Positions 4,788 to 60,282 of a DNA stretch of 64,000 nt are shown here, in pieces (the stretch's first letter is position 1; each line of letters opens with the position of its first letter). The stretch lies in the NCBI GenBank assembly GCA_903875215.1, contig CAIQVH010000016.1, positions 496,001 through 560,000 of the forward strand, written 5' to 3'. The notes below the pieces were generated by a model. The model made no database searches, had not been told where the DNA came from, and saw only the letters and a program-made list of their open reading frames with translations. This stretch comes from an uncultured Anaerolineae bacterium. Lineage in GTDB: Bacteria; Chloroflexota; Anaerolineae; Anaerolineales; Villigracilaceae. The position numbers and the translations under genes were made by a program.

Positions 4788-4796
4788 TGCTATAAT
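4788..4796 (+). promoter_or_regulatory. Extended -10 promoter of mntA-hepT
   Basis: TGCTATAAT is a perfect extended -10 element. The ATG of the next gene begins only 6 nt after it, so the mRNA is probably leaderless. Confidence 0.6.
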
Positions 4797-4802
4797 TTAT
4801 TC

Positions 4803-5108
4803 ATGCTGACTGCTCATATCTCCATTCCCAAGAAGGAAATTACTGCTTTTTGCCAACGCTGGAAAGTGGTGGAGTTTGCGTTGTTCGGGTCAGTATTGCG
4901 CGATGACTTCACACCCGAAAGCGATGTAGATGTGTTGGTGACGTTTGCTCTGGGAGCGCAGGTCAGTTTGTTTGACATGGCGCAGATGCAAATCGAATTG
5001 CAGATGCTTTTTGAACGCCCGGTGGACATTCTCGAAAAGGAAGCCCTGCGCAATCCGTATCGCAAGCGCGAGATATTGGGCACTGCGCAGGTAGTGTATG
5101 CGGCCTAA
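4803..5108 (+). CDS. mntA: MntA-like nucleotidyltransferase antitoxin
   Basis: This 101-residue protein has the minimal nucleotidyltransferase fold: GSVLRDD near residue 30 followed by the paired acidic residues of SDVDVLV. In the MntA/HepT family the antitoxin adds AMP groups to the HepT toxin and so silences it. The frame stays open far upstream (to 3900), but that part is antisense to dmsA; the start at 4803 gives a standard-length protein and sits just behind a TATAAT box. It overlaps hepT by 11 bp. The pair is transcribed divergently from dmsA. Confidence 0.88.
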   Translation: MLTAHISIPKKEITAFCQRWKVVEFALFGSVLRDDFTPESDVDVLVTFALGAQVSLFDMAQMQIELQMLFERPVDILEKEALRNPYRKREILGTAQVVYAA

Positions 5109-5753: not shown

Positions 5754-5762
5754 TGCTATAAT
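5754..5762 (+). promoter_or_regulatory. Extended -10 promoter of the PIN cassette
   Basis: TGCTATAAT, identical to the mntA promoter core, ends 7 nt before the ATG at 5770. A leaderless transcript is likely. Confidence 0.6.
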
Positions 5763-5769
5763 TTGTTCA

Positions 5770-6213
5770 ATGGTTAAGATTTATCTCGATAATTGTTGTC
5801 TCAATCGGCCTTTCGATGACCAAACGCAGGTGCGTGTTCGACTCGAGTCGGAAGCAGTATTGCTAATCCTGTCACGTATCGAGCAGGGTGAATGGTCATG
5901 GATTGGTAGCGATGTGTTAACGGACGAGATTGAGCAAACGCCTGATTTCGGAAAGCGTTCTCGCTTGCAAGTAGTGGCAGACTATGTGCAAGATATTGTT
6001 GAAGTTGATGAGCCTGAACTGGAGCGAGCAAAAGATTTGCAAAAATTCGGTTTTCAAGGATACGATGCTTTGCATATTGCCTGCGCAGAAAGCGCGAAAG
6101 CTGATGTATTCCTGACGACTGATGACCGTTTGCTCAAACTTGTAAAACGTTTCTCCAAAAAACTTCATGTAACGGTTGTAAATCCATTGATATGGCTTGA
6201 GGAGATGGAATAA
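5770..6213 (+). CDS. PIN-domain protein (VapC-like RNase toxin)
   Basis: This 147-residue protein starts with the PIN signature IYLDNCCLNRPFDD (first catalytic Asp near residue 7) and has later acidic residues in YDALHIACAE and TTDDRLL, giving the usual Asp/Glu cluster of this metal-dependent RNase fold. The start at 5770 is preferred over the open frame upstream, because the protein then begins at the PIN fold and lies just behind the promoter. It overlaps the next gene by 1 bp (TAATG). The toxin-first order, with the partner second, is reversed from classical VapBC. Confidence 0.8.
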   Translation: MVKIYLDNCCLNRPFDDQTQVRVRLESEAVLLILSRIEQGEWSWIGSDVLTDEIEQTPDFGKRSRLQVVADYVQDIVEVDEPELERAKDLQKFGFQGYDALHIACAESAKADVFLTTDDRLLKLVKRFSKKLHVTVVNPLIWLEEME

Positions 6214-54343: not shown

Positions 54344-54928
54344 ATGTGGGTTGACCCCGTGATTCTCACAGGGAAATATGTTCGTCTGGAGCCATTGAGC
54401 GAGGCGCACGTGCCTGGGCTGACCCTCGCCGGGCAGGATCCGCTCATTTGGCGGTATATGCTGTACGGGGAGGTGACAACCGAGCAGAAAATGCTGTCCT
54501 GGGTTCAAGAGATGTTAACGAGAAAAGTTGCCGGGGCCGATCAGCCTTTTGTCGTCATCCACGCTGCCAGTGGAAAGGTGGCCGGGGCAACCCGTTATAT
54601 GGAAATTCGCCCGGATCATCGCGGGCTGGAGATTGGCGGGACGTGGTACGGGGCGCAGTTCCAGCGCACACCGGTCAATACCGAGACGAAATTCCTGCTG
54701 CTGCGGCATGCCTTTGAGACGCTCGGCTGCATCCGGGTGCAGCTCAAAACCGATCTGCGCAACGAGCGTTCACAGCGCGCCATTGAGCGGCTGGGCGCTG
54801 TGCGGGAGGGGGTTCTGCGAAATCACATGATCCTGGCAGATGGCACCTACCGTCATTCTGTCTATTTCAGCATTCTCGATACCGAATGGCCGACCGTCAA
54901 AGCCCGCCTGGAAGAAAAATTGGTATAA
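54344..54928 (+). CDS. GNAT-family N-acetyltransferase (RimJ/RimL-like)
   Basis: The 194-residue enzyme has the start LTGKYVRLEPL, the EIGGTWYG strand and the acetyl-CoA-binding region LKTDLRNERSQRAIERLGA typical of the RimJ/RimL type that acetylates protein N termini or small amines. It follows the SRPBCC gene directly, with GGGAGG before its ATG. Confidence 0.85.
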   Translation: MWVDPVILTGKYVRLEPLSEAHVPGLTLAGQDPLIWRYMLYGEVTTEQKMLSWVQEMLTRKVAGADQPFVVIHAASGKVAGATRYMEIRPDHRGLEIGGTWYGAQFQRTPVNTETKFLLLRHAFETLGCIRVQLKTDLRNERSQRAIERLGAVREGVLRNHMILADGTYRHSVYFSILDTEWPTVKARLEEKLV

Positions 54929-54929
54929 T
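54921..54929 (+). promoter_or_regulatory. Extended -10 promoter of the ABC-F leader
   Basis: TGGTATAAT lies in the last codons of the acetyltransferase gene and ends 6 nt before the ATG of a short ORF. Confidence 0.55.
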
Positions 54930-54935
54930 TGCGCC

Positions 54936-55040
54936 ATGTTGATTGTTTTCCGCCTCGCCCGCTCGCTCGTTTCACTTCTCCGGAACGGCTTCGACGCCAG
55001 ATTTCCTTCTCGTATTGCGCCTGCCGCCTCAAAAGCTTGA
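54936..55040 (+). CDS. Putative leaderless 34-residue leader peptide of the ABC-F gene
   Basis: The ORF begins 6 nt after a perfect extended -10 box and encodes a basic, Leu/Arg/Ser-rich peptide (MLIVFRLARSLVSLLRNG...). It ends 20 nt before an intrinsic terminator that precedes the ABC-F gene. A role in ribosome-dependent attenuation is inferred; the peptide has no known homologue to me. Confidence 0.4.
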   Translation: MLIVFRLARSLVSLLRNGFDARFPSRIAPAASKA

Positions 55041-55059
55041 CCGTTCGCTTAGAATTTTT

Positions 55060-55088
55060 GCGCCGCAGGAGACCCCTGCGGCGCTTTT
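55060..55088 (+). terminator. Terminator/attenuator upstream of the ABC-F gene
   Basis: A perfect 10-bp stem GCGCCGCAGG with loop AGACC is followed by TTTTGTTT, 20 nt after the short ORF and 18 nt before the ABC-F start. Confidence 0.75.
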
Positions 55089-55106
55089 GTTTCGCAAGGA
55101 TATTCC

Positions 55107-56729
55107 ATGATTTCAATTTCTGTTTCCAACGCCAGCCTCGTCTTGGGCGCCAAAACCATTTTCCGCGGTCTGAACTGGGAAATCCAACACGATCAGCGCA
55201 TCGGCCTGATTGGGCCAAATGGGGCTGGAAAATCCTCGTTGTTCAAGCTCATCATGGGGGAATATGCGCCGGAGCCGGGGGGAACCCTCACCCGCGCGAA
55301 GGGTGTCACCGTCGGCTACCTGCCCCAGCACCCGGAACTGGATCTCACTCAAACGGCATTCGATTCTGCCCTGGCGGGTAACCCGCGCTACGCCGACATC
55401 CAACTGGGTTTGCATGCTGTGGAAGAACGCCTGGGCGATCCGCGGGTTTTTGGTAACTCCTCGGCGCTGGAAAAGGCGCTGGCAGTGCAGGAAAAGTTGC
55501 TGGAAGAATATGCCGCCCTGGGTGGAGATTCTTACCCGCAGCGGGTGCGCGACCTGTTGCTGGGACTCGGCCTGCCGGAATCCGATTTGCAAAAAAAACT
55601 GGCGCAACTCTCTGGCGGACAGAAAAAGCTGGTCATGCTGGCGCGCCTGATCCTGCTGCATCCCGCCGTGCTGATGCTTGATGAACCCGATAACCACCTC
55701 GATCTACCCGGCAAATCTTACCTGGAGCGGCTGATTCAAGAGTACCCTGGCGCGGTGGTTATCATTTCGCATGACCGTTACCTGCTGGATGCGGTCGTCA
55801 CTCATATTGCCGAAATCGAAGCTGGCGAGCTGGTCACCTTCCCGGGCACCTATACCGATTATATTTTGGATAAAGAACTGCGCCTGGCGCGCCAGGAAGA
55901 GTTGTACCAGATTCAACAGCGCGCCATCACGCGCATGGAAATGGCGCTCAAACGCTACCAGGTCTGGGTGCAGCTGAGTGACAAGTTTGCCAGCCGCGTG
56001 CGCGCCATGCAAACCCGTCTCGAGAAGGTGGATCGCCTTAACCGCCCGGATCTGGAGCGCCGCCGCATGGGCCTGGAGCTGAACGGCTGGCGCGGCTCCA
56101 ACAAGGTGCTGGAATTGCGCGGAGTGGTGAAAACCTTCGGGCCGCGCATCATTTTGAATGGCGTGGATGAAATTCTCTGGCACGGGGAGCGCGTCGGCGT
56201 TGTTGGGCCGAATGGCTCGGGCAAATCGGTTCTGTTTCGCCTGATTTTGGGACAGGAAAAGCCCGAGGCTGGAGAGATTGTGCTCGGGCCGAGTGTGCGG
56301 GTGGGGTATTATGCCCAGGAGCACGAGACGCTCGATTTTGAGAAAACGGTGCTCGATACGGTGCGCCTGGCTGGAAACATGAGCGAATCACGGGCGGTGG
56401 CTTTTTTGCTGCGCTACTTGTTCACTTATCAACAATCCCAGCAGCGGGTGGGCGATTTATCGGGCGGGGAGCGCAGCCGCCTGCAACTTGCGCTGTTGGT
56501 GCTTTCAGGGGCGAATTTTCTCTTGCTCGATGAGCCAACCAATAACCTGGATATTGCTTCGGCGGAAGTGCTGGAAAACGTCCTGGCTGATTTTGTCGGC
56601 ACGGTGCTGGTGATTTCGCACGACCGCTATTTTCTCGACCGGACGGTGGAGCGCATTCTGACGATTGAACGGGGCCGGTTGGAGCGGCATTTGGGCGGGT
56701 ATAGTGATTTTCTCGCCAGCCAGGGTTGA
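55107..56729 (+). CDS. ABC-F family ATPase
   Basis: The 540-residue soluble protein contains two ABC domains: Walker A GPNGAGKSS and GPNGSGKSV, signatures LSGGQKK and LSGGERSR, and Walker B LMLDEPDNHLD and LLLDEPTNNLD. A charged coiled linker (about residues 235-320) joins them and no membrane helices occur. ABC-F proteins act on ribosomes; some protect them from antibiotics that block the peptidyl-transferase site, others serve housekeeping roles. The upstream leader ORF and terminator suggest antibiotic- or stress-sensitive control. Confidence 0.9.
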   Translation: MISISVSNASLVLGAKTIFRGLNWEIQHDQRIGLIGPNGAGKSSLFKLIMGEYAPEPGGTLTRAKGVTVGYLPQHPELDLTQTAFDSALAGNPRYADIQLGLHAVEERLGDPRVFGNSSALEKALAVQEKLLEEYAALGGDSYPQRVRDLLLGLGLPESDLQKKLAQLSGGQKKLVMLARLILLHPAVLMLDEPDNHLDLPGKSYLERLIQEYPGAVVIISHDRYLLDAVVTHIAEIEAGELVTFPGTYTDYILDKELRLARQEELYQIQQRAITRMEMALKRYQVWVQLSDKFASRVRAMQTRLEKVDRLNRPDLERRRMGLELNGWRGSNKVLELRGVVKTFGPRIILNGVDEILWHGERVGVVGPNGSGKSVLFRLILGQEKPEAGEIVLGPSVRVGYYAQEHETLDFEKTVLDTVRLAGNMSESRAVAFLLRYLFTYQQSQQRVGDLSGGERSRLQLALLVLSGANFLLLDEPTNNLDIASAEVLENVLADFVGTVLVISHDRYFLDRTVERILTIERGRLERHLGGYSDFLASQG

Positions 56730-56759: not shown

Positions 56760-57995
56760 TCAGGGCTGAGGGGCGGGGTTGTGGGGTGCGCCCGGGGTTT
56801 TGGCGGCTTGCCAGGTCAGCAGGAGCAAACCGGCGGCGCTGAGCAGTCCCATGGTCATGCCGCCCCACCAGATGGCTTGTGGGCCGAAGTTGTCGTTGAG
56901 CAGCCCGCCCAGCACCGGGCCGACGCCCTGCCCGAAGGCCCATGTCAGCCCGTAGATGCTCATGTAGCGGCCGCGCATTTCGGCGGGGGCCAGGTTGGCG
57001 GTGAAGGTGCTGGAGGTGGGGACAATGACCAGTTCGCCGAAGCTCATGACGACCATGCTGATCCAAAATCCCCACAGGTTGGTGCTGAGCGCGACCAGGC
57101 CGTTGGCGATGGCGTAGAGTGTCATACCAAAGGTCATCATGCTGAGTGGTTTGTGGCGGCGGGTGAATTGGGTGATCCACAATTGCAGGAAGACGACCAT
57201 GAGCGCGTTGGTGGTGGGGATGGGGCTGTAGACGTTTTCGGCGATGCTGTAATGATCGTAGGCGTATTTGGGCATCAGTATCCACATGAGCGAGGCGGTG
57301 ACCCAGCCAAACATGAGCAGGGCGATGGCGGGCGTGAAGCGCAGGTCGCGCAGGACTTTGTCGTAACCGCCGAAGCGTTCGGGGGCGGGTTTTTCGGCTG
57401 GGGTGGCGCGGCGGACGAGGGTTTCGCGGGCAAAAAAGGTTAACAGCAGGGCGTAGAGAGTCATGCCGGCTGCGGCGGCGTAGAAGGCCAGGCTGTAGGA
57501 GCGCGCGGCCAGCGCGCCGCCAGCCAGGGGGCCAATGGCGATGCCAGCGTTGTTAATCATGCGAATCAGTGAGTAGGCTTCGGTACGGTCTTCTGGCGGA
57601 ATCAGGTCTGCCAGCATGGCATCGGCTCCTACGCGGTAGAGCGGGTTGGCCAGGCCGCGCAGGGCCATCAGGATGGCAAAAGCCAGGTAGGTTTGAGCCT
57701 GAGCGAGCAGGCCGAAGAGCAGGGCGTCTGCAAACAGGCTGATGAGCATGACGCCCTTGCGGCCTAGCCTGTCGGCGATGGAACCGGCCAGGAAGGAGGC
57801 CAGGACGTTGCAGGCGGCGTTGATGGTCATGAGCGTGGCGACCTGGGTGAGGGGCAGGGTCAGTTTGTTGCTGACGTAGATCATCAGGTAGGGCCAGATC
57901 ATGCTGGCGCCGCTGGCGCTGAGCAGCAATCCCCAGAACATCAGCCAGTATTGGCGCGGGTATTTTTTGTAGGTGTCAATCAGGTGAAGGTACAT
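56760..57995 (-). CDS. MFS transporter
   Basis: The 411-residue protein has 12 hydrophobic segments. Motif A is SIADRLGRKG between helices 2 and 3, and NNAGIAIGPLAGG in helix 5 is of the exporter type; the C-terminal half has FGQGVGPVLGG. It probably exports drugs or sugars. The ATG at 57995 starts directly at the first helix; the longer open frame runs antisense-like through the pnp region and is not coding. It is convergent with the ABC-F gene. Confidence 0.85.
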   Translation of the reverse strand: MYLHLIDTYKKYPRQYWLMFWGLLLSASGASMIWPYLMIYVSNKLTLPLTQVATLMTINAACNVLASFLAGSIADRLGRKGVMLISLFADALLFGLLAQAQTYLAFAILMALRGLANPLYRVGADAMLADLIPPEDRTEAYSLIRMINNAGIAIGPLAGGALAARSYSLAFYAAAAGMTLYALLLTFFARETLVRRATPAEKPAPERFGGYDKVLRDLRFTPAIALLMFGWVTASLMWILMPKYAYDHYSIAENVYSPIPTTNALMVVFLQLWITQFTRRHKPLSMMTFGMTLYAIANGLVALSTNLWGFWISMVVMSFGELVIVPTSSTFTANLAPAEMRGRYMSIYGLTWAFGQGVGPVLGGLLNDNFGPQAIWWGGMTMGLLSAAGLLLLTWQAAKTPGAPHNPAPQP

Positions 57996-58015
57996 GCCAG
58001 AAGGTTGGAATGAAG

Positions 58016-58040
58016 AGGGGCGGCCGATCTGGCCGCCCCT
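58016..58040. terminator. Hairpin between pnp and the MFS gene
   Basis: A perfect 10-bp GC-rich stem AGGGGCGGCC with a 5-nt loop follows the pnp stop codon; the T run is weak. Confidence 0.5.
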
Positions 58041-58056
58041 GTGATTTTTGGGAGAT

Positions 58057-60282
58057 TTACCTGCGGCGATCGAACCCGCCGCGGTTGCCGCCCCGATTTC
58101 CGCCTCGGTCTCCACCGCGGTCTCCGCCGCTGGGCCGGCCACCGCCGCCGCGCGGTTTGTCTTTCTCGCGGGCTTCTTCGGCAGTCCAGCCTTCGAGCAC
58201 GGCCTGGCGCGAAAGGCGGATTTTGCCAGCCGGGTCAATATCGGTCACCATGACGGTCAGCTCGTCGCCGATGCCGCAGATGTCTTCGACTTTGTTGACC
58301 CGCTCAGAATCGAGCTGGGAAATGTGAACGAGGCCATCGACGCCGGGCAGGATCTGCACGAAGGCGCCAAACGCTTCGACGCGCACGACTTTGCCGGTGT
58401 AGATGCGCCCAATTTCAGCGCTTTCGCCGAGCGCTTCGACGCGCGCACGGGCTGCTTCGCCGCCGATACCGTCGGTGCTGGCGATGTACACGGTGCCGTC
58501 TTCCTGCACGTCAATCTTGACGCCGGTTTCTTCCTGCAAGGCGCGGATGTTTTTGCCGCCCGGGCCGATCAGTGCGCCGATTTTATCCACCGGGATTTTG
58601 ACGGTGATGATGCGCGGGGCGTGTGGTTTCAGTTCGAGGCGCGGTGCAGGCAGAACTGCGAGCATTTTCTCCAGGATGGAGAGCCGGGCGGTGTGGGCCT
58701 GGTCGAGTGCTTCGGTCATCATTTTGGTGCTCAGACCGCTGATTTTGATGTCCATTTGCAGGGCGGTGATGCCCTTGGTGGTGCCGGCCACCTTGAAATC
58801 CATGTCGCCGAGGTGGTCTTCGGTGCCCTGGATGTCGGTCAGGATTTTGTAGCGGCCGGTTTCATCGGTCACCAGGCCCATTGCCACGCCGGCGACAGGT
58901 GCCTTGATCGGCACGCCGGCATCCATCAGGGCCAGGGTCGAGCCACAGACGGAGGCCATGGAAGAGGAGCCGTTGGATGCCAGCACTTCGGAGACGAGCC
59001 GCAGGGTGTAGGGGAAGCTTTCTTCGGCCGGGATGACCGGTTCGAGGGCGCGTTCTGCCAGGGCGCCGTGGCCTACCTCGCGGCGGGATTGTCCGCGCAG
59101 GGGTTTGACTTCGCCGGTGGAGAAGGGTGGGAAGTTGTAGTGGTGTAAATAGCGCTTGGTGTCGATGGGGGAGAGATTGTCCAGTTCCTGGGCTTCGCCG
59201 AGTGTGCCGAGCGTGGCCAGGGTCAGCACCTGGGTTTCGCCGCGGGTGAACAGGCCGGAGCCGTGCGCGCGCGGTGAGAGGTTGACTTCACACCAGATTG
59301 GGCGGATTTCGGTTGGGGTGCGGCCATCGGGGCGTTTGCCCAGGCCGAGGATGCGTTCGCGTACAATGGCGCCTTCGGCTTCGCTGAAGGCGGCTTTAAC
59401 ATCTTTAGGCGCGGGAGATTCCGGGTCGTCGGTGCAAAGTGCAGTGATGAGATCGGTCAGGATGGCATCCATGCCGCTGTAAAATTCGGCTTTGGCGAGT
59501 GGTTTGTCGAGCAGTTCGTTCATCGGGCCGCTGACACGGTCGAGGACGAGTTTGTTCAGGTCATCGGTGGCGTTGGCGAAGGTGGCAGCGCGTTTTGGTT
59601 TTCCAGCTTCGGCGGCCATTTTGAGTTGCAGGTCAATGATCGGCTGGATGGATCGGTGCCCGAGTTCCAGTGCGGCGACCATGACGTCTTCGGGGATTTC
59701 ATCGGCGCCACATTCCACCATCAGGATGGCGTCGCGGGTGCCGGCCAGGCGCAGGTCGAGGTCTGATTGGGCCATTTCGGCGAAGGTGGGGTTGAGGACG
59801 AACTGGCCGTTGACTCGGCCAACCCGTACGGCGCCAACGGGGCCGCCCCAGGGGATGTCGGAGATCATGATTGCGGCAGATGCGGCGTTGATGGCCAGGA
59901 TGTCTAGCGGGTTGATGCCATCGGAGGACAGCGAGAACATCATGACCTGGACTTCGTTGCGCATGCCGTGCGCGAAGAGCGGGCGCAGTGGGCGGTCGGT
60001 CAGGCGGGCGGTCAGGATGGCTTCTGTGCTGGGGCGTCCTTCGCGGCGAAAGAACGAGCCGGGGATTTTCCCGCCGGCGTAAAGGCGTTCTTCGTATTCG
60101 ACGGAGAGTGGGAAGAAGTCAATGCCTTCGCGCACGCCGCCCATGGTGGCGGCGGCGAAGATGATGGCTTCATCGATCCCGACGGTGACCGCGCCGCCGG
60201 CCTGATGGGCCAGCTTGCCGGTTTCAAAGGAAATGGTACGCGTCCCGACGGTGGTCGAGTAGCGTTTTACTTCTGGTTTCAT
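58057..60282 (-). CDS. pnp: Polyribonucleotide nucleotidyltransferase (PNPase)
   Basis: The 741-residue exoribonuclease degrades RNA 3' to 5' with phosphate. It has two RNase PH domains (the second with [17 protein letters not shown] and [10 protein letters not shown]), a helical middle, then KH ([20 protein letters not shown]) and S1 ([15 protein letters not shown]) RNA-binding domains. The final 33 residues form an RGG-rich tail ([18 protein letters not shown]), which is unusual for PNPase. It follows rpsO in the common rpsO-pnp order. Confidence 0.96.

Follow-up and report, generated by a model that had tools for sequence, protein, structure and literature searches.

The locus analysed here raises the question whether a short open reading frame (ORF) and an intrinsic terminator, which lie directly in front of a gene for an ABC-F ATPase, form a switch for this gene and, if so, what the switch responds to. 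In the window, by which we mean the whole 64,000-nucleotide stretch of DNA analysed, an extended −10 promoter element (TGG-TATAAT, 54921..54929; all features are on the plus strand unless noted) is followed after a spacer of 6 nt by an ATG at 54936, which opens a leader ORF of 34 codons (54936..55040, stop codon TGA at 55038-55040; MLIVFRLARSLVSLLRNGFDARFPSRIAPAASKA) with a predicted leaderless start. The intrinsic terminator (55060..55092) begins 19 nt after the leader stop and is built from a hairpin of 10 pairs with a 5-nt loop (55060-55084) and a T-rich tail, TTTTGTTT. The ABC-F gene (55107..56729, 540 aa) has its own Shine-Dalgarno-like (SD-like) sequence, AAGGA, at 55096..55100, and an SD-like sequence likewise precedes 70 of the 79 family ABC-F starts considered below. 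Upstream lies an acetyltransferase-like ORF (54344-54928), the stop codon of which is overlapped by the −10 box, a point that the preliminary description of this DNA does not mention.

The stretches upstream of orthologous ABC-F genes were collected for comparison, yielding 179 distinct sequences, 88 from the window's family and 91 from other members of the class. In 79 of the 88 distinct family stretches, a short ORF is preceded at 6-10 nt by a TATAAT-like box, which in 78 of them reads exactly TATAAT, and the hairpin follows 78 of these 79 leaders with a median gap of 20 nt between stop codon and hairpin. The preliminary description had pointed out the extended −10 element with the 34-codon ORF 6 nt further on, as well as an intrinsic terminator between this ORF and the ABC-F start; both elements are present at the window locus and both recur in its relatives. 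Nine family stretches gave no leader call: three are truncated where the contig ends (L123, L127, L129), one belongs to a distant paralog (L173), and upstream of five orthologs the leader is absent (L103, L139, L159, L167, L171). Two of the latter, L103 and L171, have an apparent leaderless promoter on the ABC-F gene itself, with TACAAT separated from its start codon by 10 or 6 nt, as if the switch had been lost. Searching with a profile of the leader gave matches in 82 of 152 family genomes; by comparison of positions and by reading of seven unclear cases, the matches adjoin an ABC-F gene or a contig end, with the exception of one orphan. Class-wide, 21 of 396 genomes matched at E ≤ 0.01, the strong matches all belonging to the family or to f25. 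The two other ABC-F genes of the window's genome showed no such leader on reading. Outside the family, 42 leaders were hand-picked from the candidate lists for the 91 stretches, 49 stretches being without an accepted candidate. All but L254 could be located for the promoter table, giving 41 leaders (27 leaderless and 14 with the −10 box farther away), and 38 entered the pairing tests, since 4 of the 42 had no terminator by scan; the family leader L104 was dropped likewise. One more leader, L325, was examined afterwards and does not enter any of the non-family counts. By sequence comparison, leader plus terminator before the ABC-F gene is a conserved device in Chloroflexota relatives.

The distance from the −10 box to the start codon is 6-10 nt in all 79 family leaders (allowed range 4-12 nt), namely 7 nt in 54, 9 nt in 13, 6 nt in 7, 10 nt in 4 and 8 nt in one. 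The TG extension of the −10 box occurs in 35 of the 79 promoters, and a −35 hexamer matching at 4 or more of 6 positions in 19, compared to 9.9 expected. Family promoters have a weak −35 element and rely on a perfect −10. Outside the family, 25 of the 27 leaderless leaders have a −35 hexamer by the same measure (at least 4 of 6), placed 16-18 nt from the −10 box, with 2.7 expected from shuffles, and a TAnnnT box 5-10 nt 5′ of the start was found in 27 of the 41 located leaders. As predicted from the position of the promoter, the 5′ end of the leader mRNA should lie at the AUG or within about 3 nt of it, and the −10 box leaves no room for a Shine-Dalgarno site before the leader ORF. For TATAAT-N6-9-ATG, the window has 5 occurrences where 0.27 would be expected, and the available part of Zheng et al. 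2011 (PMC3160421) describes leaderless signals of the TAtaaT type in Chloroflexi, so that a leaderless start is nothing unusual in this lineage. What deserves attention is its use by a sensor ORF.

Evidence for translation of the leader comes from its substitution pattern. Among 61 leaders with the motif described below at codon 17, 468 pairs at 70-97% identity gave a pN/pS of 0.218 in frame, as opposed to 1.42 and 1.94 when the two other frames were read (codons 2-19), and the differences in these codons numbered 1238, 806 and 3732 by codon position. As pN/pS is low in frame only, the leader ORF is judged to be translated and under coding constraint. The peptide is kept at the 79 family loci, where the leader ORFs have 14-37 codons, as a rule 25-34, and start with ATG in 77 cases and GTG in 2; the residues after Met are mostly I, L, R or F, then Y. 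Codons 17-19 of the window leader (54984..54992) encode Asn-Gly-Phe, a motif of the [R/N]GF type and the proposed stall region. This motif starts at codon 17 in 61 and at codon 16 in 17 of the 79 family leaders, frequencies that are biased because ORFs bearing [RN][GV][FSP] were preferred where a locus offered several candidates, the profile search and pN/pS being partial checks. Stalling on the nascent chain would require such a constant distance between Met and motif; a stall in this region is what we infer. SD-led f53 leaders (MIRFSxGQSxLMLRGV...) were considered as homologues of the family profile and rejected, as their best E value of 0.025 compares with 0.0079 reached by shuffled peptides.

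A second conserved element, block B (TCGTATTGCGCCTG, 55010..55023), lies in the end of the leader ORF and is the proposed antiterminator strand. It was found in 79 of 79 family leaders with the consensus TCGAATCGCGCCTG. At 16 family loci the reading of B is altered, being in another frame (n = 9), after a premature stop (n = 6) or in a broken ORF (n = 1), and its conservation there is 12.88 of 14 versus 12.98 of 14 at the 63 loci that kept the frame. Since conservation is equal whether the reading frame is kept or lost, B seems to be constrained as nucleic acid. Outside the family, the counterpart of B is complementary to the 5′ arm of the hairpin over as many as 12 pairs, counting G-U; the cores of both elements differ in step (GCGCC/GGCGC, CGTCC/GGACG, GTACC/GGTAC). 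In 38 such leaders the true partners of B and 5′ arm gave 19.7 versus 17.8 for permuted ones (s.d. 0.48; 0 of 1000 permutations), a result which was borderline with one locus per family (median p 0.055; 44% of draws ≤0.05). Within the window's family, B did not pair better with its own hairpin than with swapped ones (382 of 1000), because B and hairpin are both nearly invariant. The fold downstream of a stalled ribosome beat dinucleotide shuffles (rank ≤0.05) at 28 of 78 family and 12 of 38 other loci; the whole leader RNA of the window folded no better than shuffles (z 0.25). Fold energies calculated for the window are −13.3 kcal/mol with B free versus −21.6 kcal/mol for the terminator, and therefore antitermination would have to be kinetic. 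On this comparative evidence, an antiterminator formed by B and the hairpin arm is probable.

Several further candidates were discarded. Capture of the terminator arm was rejected as proof of the antiterminator: free B captured the arm at 78 of 78 loci versus 11 of 78 with a ribosome on the stop codon, yet shuffled upstream sequence did so in 84% of trials, and from this analysis the energy comparison alone was retained. A ribosome-sensitive upstream 1:2 hairpin acting as anti-antiterminator found no support: against shuffles of synonymous codons, the pairing of codons 11-20 with B had a mean rank of 0.40 over 77 loci. Rfam gave no match at gathering score in the window; a sub-threshold match to ncS54 (E 0.0074, 21.7 of 43 bits) was treated as a chance match from the terminator, and the other sub-threshold matches were also weak. 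Two observations were made between leader and gene. An element TTATGTAAA(C/G)T recurs between leader stop and hairpin in non-family lineages (L212, L214, L215, L217, L253, L325 and others), possibly connected with pausing, and in the f48 loci L225, L215, L260 and L325 the leader is separated from the ABC-F gene by two terminator-like hairpins in succession.

We consider it likely that at this locus a leaderless ORF acts as the sensor of a transcription attenuator under ribosome control, which induces an uncharacterised ABC-F protein. RNA polymerase, to judge from the promoter position, would start at or beside the leader AUG, and a ribosome would load on this 5′-terminal AUG and trail the polymerase. 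Unhindered, the ribosome would read the 25-34 codons, sit on the stop codon and cover B, whereupon the hairpin 55060-55084 would form and transcription would terminate ahead of the ABC-F gene. A ribosome-binding compound, the signal that we infer, would stall the ribosome on the nascent chain, most likely near G-V-[R/N]-G-F at codons about 14-19. The stalled ribosome would leave B free to pair with the 5′ arm of the hairpin in an antiterminator for which the support is moderate, termination would be blocked, and the ABC-F gene, now transcribed by read-through, would be translated with the help of the SD-like sequence in front of it. Its product might finally free or protect ribosomes and so close the loop. 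Comparison among relatives supports the promoter-AUG spacing, the translation of the ORF, the conservation of motif, B and terminator, and the linkage to the ABC-F gene.

The ABC-F protein passed the general model for ribosomal protection-like ABC-F proteins narrowly (NCBIfam NF000355, 391 bits versus a cut-off of 380) and scored far below every cut-off of the named resistance models (Msr, Vga, Lsa, Sal, OptrA, CplR and producer). The closest named records are from Anaerolineales MAGs with 66 and 64% identity, which assigns the window to a Chloroflexota genome of Anaerolineales type; plasmid-borne resistance ABC-F proteins, among those listed, share about 27-30% identity with the window protein (OptrA 27%). 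A function in resistance is presumed here. A convergent gene on the minus strand (56760-58238) encodes an MFS transporter with weak similarity to multidrug efflux models, below their cut-offs.

The strongest alternative, unlikely in our estimate, is housekeeping autoregulation of an EttA-like factor, in which the leader stalls by itself or with a metabolite and ABC-F relieves the stall, so that the attenuator gauges ABC-F activity and not drugs. EttA is indeed the nearest solved structure (E 5e-86), ahead of the resistance protein PoxtA (2.4e-56) with others farther, the cut-offs of all named resistance models were missed, and ectopic MsrD is described, in the available part of PMC10314930, as suppressing induction via its own leader. 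However, the protein also misses the EttA equivalog and subfamily cut-offs (382 of 599 and 380.5 of 806.75) while passing the ribosomal protection-like model, and an ortholog is present in 90 of 152 family genomes at E ≤ 1e-120, a patchy distribution unlike that of a housekeeping factor.

Purifying selection on the peptide would also be expected of a small protein acting in trans, the hairpin being merely its terminator. This reading is very improbable, as the leader is tied to the ABC-F gene: in genome G121, the orphan leader (L315) has an altered −10 box and has lost both terminator and ABC-F gene. Moreover, the reading frame at the C-terminal end varies freely, with the DNA block retained. 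Hardly any more probable, and perhaps slightly less so, is an amino-acid attenuator of the trp, his, ilv or cysteine type, which would pause at codons for scarce tRNAs. Its overall anatomy is alike, and leaderless cysteine versions exist in mycobacteria; nevertheless, the leader contains no run of a single amino acid, its conserved positions are scattered and keep a constant spacing from Met, and the downstream gene encodes an ABC-F protein rather than a biosynthetic enzyme. Finally, the −10 box overlaps the upstream stop codon and single-site scans are near chance (a simple terminator scan found 5 versus 4.1 expected), yet coincidence, with the hairpin ending the acetyltransferase operon and a spurious ORF, is contradicted by conservation in many genomes and by the coding constraint, and can practically be dismissed.

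The proposed attenuator resembles known ones in part. Resistance ABC-F attenuators (vmlR, vga(A), lmo0919, cplR, lmrC, msrD) have, like the window, a short ORF and an intrinsic terminator in front of the ABC-F gene, together with an alternative pairing of the kind proposed here, and work by ribosome-mediated attenuation according to the accessible sections of PMC9226507, PMC10314930, PMC10201436 and PMC8546547. The same sections give upstream ORFs of 3-4 codons for VmlR, VmlR2, CplR and LsaA (MIN, MK[L/Q], MR[I/M] and MAGN), that of vmlR being SD-led (PMC10201436, PMC9226507), and 6 residues for MsrDL (PMC10314930). In contrast, the window leader type has as a rule 25-34 codons, is predicted to be leaderless, carries its motif at codons 16-19 and belongs to another phylum. 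Leaderless short ORFs that attenuate a downstream gene are represented by the polycysteine ORFs of mycobacteria (Canestrari 2020 as cited in the available parts of PMC9031893 and PMC13236596), which differ from the window in that cysteine is sensed and translation of the downstream genes is affected, without an ABC-F gene or such a motif. The leader transcript of trpL in S. meliloti likewise starts with the ATG of the leader ORF, but trpL is a tryptophan attenuator and its peptide peTrpL also acts in trans (PMC7298713, in part). The toiL upstream ORF of E. coli senses several ribosome-targeting antibiotics and stalls at different codons; unlike the window leader, it is SD-led and regulates a toxin-antitoxin operon through translation and Rho-dependent termination (PMC12121999, in part). 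In the excerpts of the literature searched, the ABC-F attenuators come from Firmicutes and Streptomyces, and the leaderless ones from mycobacteria and S. meliloti. These excerpts contain no leaderless attenuator ORF for an ABC-F gene and no such leader in Chloroflexota, and the main texts of PMC8546547, PMC9226507, PMC10201436 and PMC12121999 do not use the word 'leaderless'. The statement that a leaderless version would be new was therefore too strong with respect to mycobacteria and S. meliloti trpL and holds, within these excerpts, for ABC-F genes. Attenuators of ABC-F genes and attenuator ORFs with a leaderless start have each been described; their combination did not turn up in the excerpts, and neither did the peptide family or its distribution within Anaerolineae.

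The preliminary description had further suggested control of the ABC-F gene by ribosome stalling, with leaderlessness serving to sense drugs that affect 70S initiation. The first part agrees with the anatomy, a conserved translated leader ORF plus terminator, whereas the second found no support. The main evidence comes from f48, in which a peptide of the type M-x-x-x-NPALN is leaderless in L225 and L325 (TTGACA, TATAAT, 7 nt, ATG) and occurs in L215 with a −10 box 20 nt upstream and AGGAA; among the others, GGAG occurs in L211, and in L260 the −10 box is 21 nt away. That one peptide is found with leaderless and with SD-led starts speaks against leaderlessness as the sensing principle. Conservation, too, extends beyond the start to codons 14-19 and the RNA block at the ORF end. 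The 14 located non-family leaders with a distant −10 box have it 14-29 nt from the start, most with an SD-like sequence. As far as sequences tell, the initiation mode is exchanged among relatives while peptide and terminator stay.

More tentatively, we propose that leaderless arrest peptides form a family extending through the whole class Anaerolineae (Chloroflexota), a reading that is possible but still somewhat doubtful and in which a new [R/N]GF motif (with lineage-specific replacements) after about 16-19 residues would sense ribosome-targeting compounds and induce an undescribed ABC-F protection factor, the loading mode (leaderless or SD-led) being exchanged and the sensor peptide and RNA switch kept. 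If true, drug-sensing ABC-F attenuation would reach a large, mostly uncultured phylum, and new arrest-peptide sequences would become available together with uncharacterised ABC-F factors whose inducers are open to read-out. Leaderless and SD-led versions of one sensor would, in addition, form a natural comparison, making the role of the initiation mode in ribosome-polymerase coupling testable. Elsewhere in the window, TATAAT was also observed 6-7 nt before the ATG of two ORFs, 4791-5108 (101 aa) and 5757-6213 (147 aa), which by eye we take to be a nucleotidyltransferase-like and a PIN-like protein, respectively.
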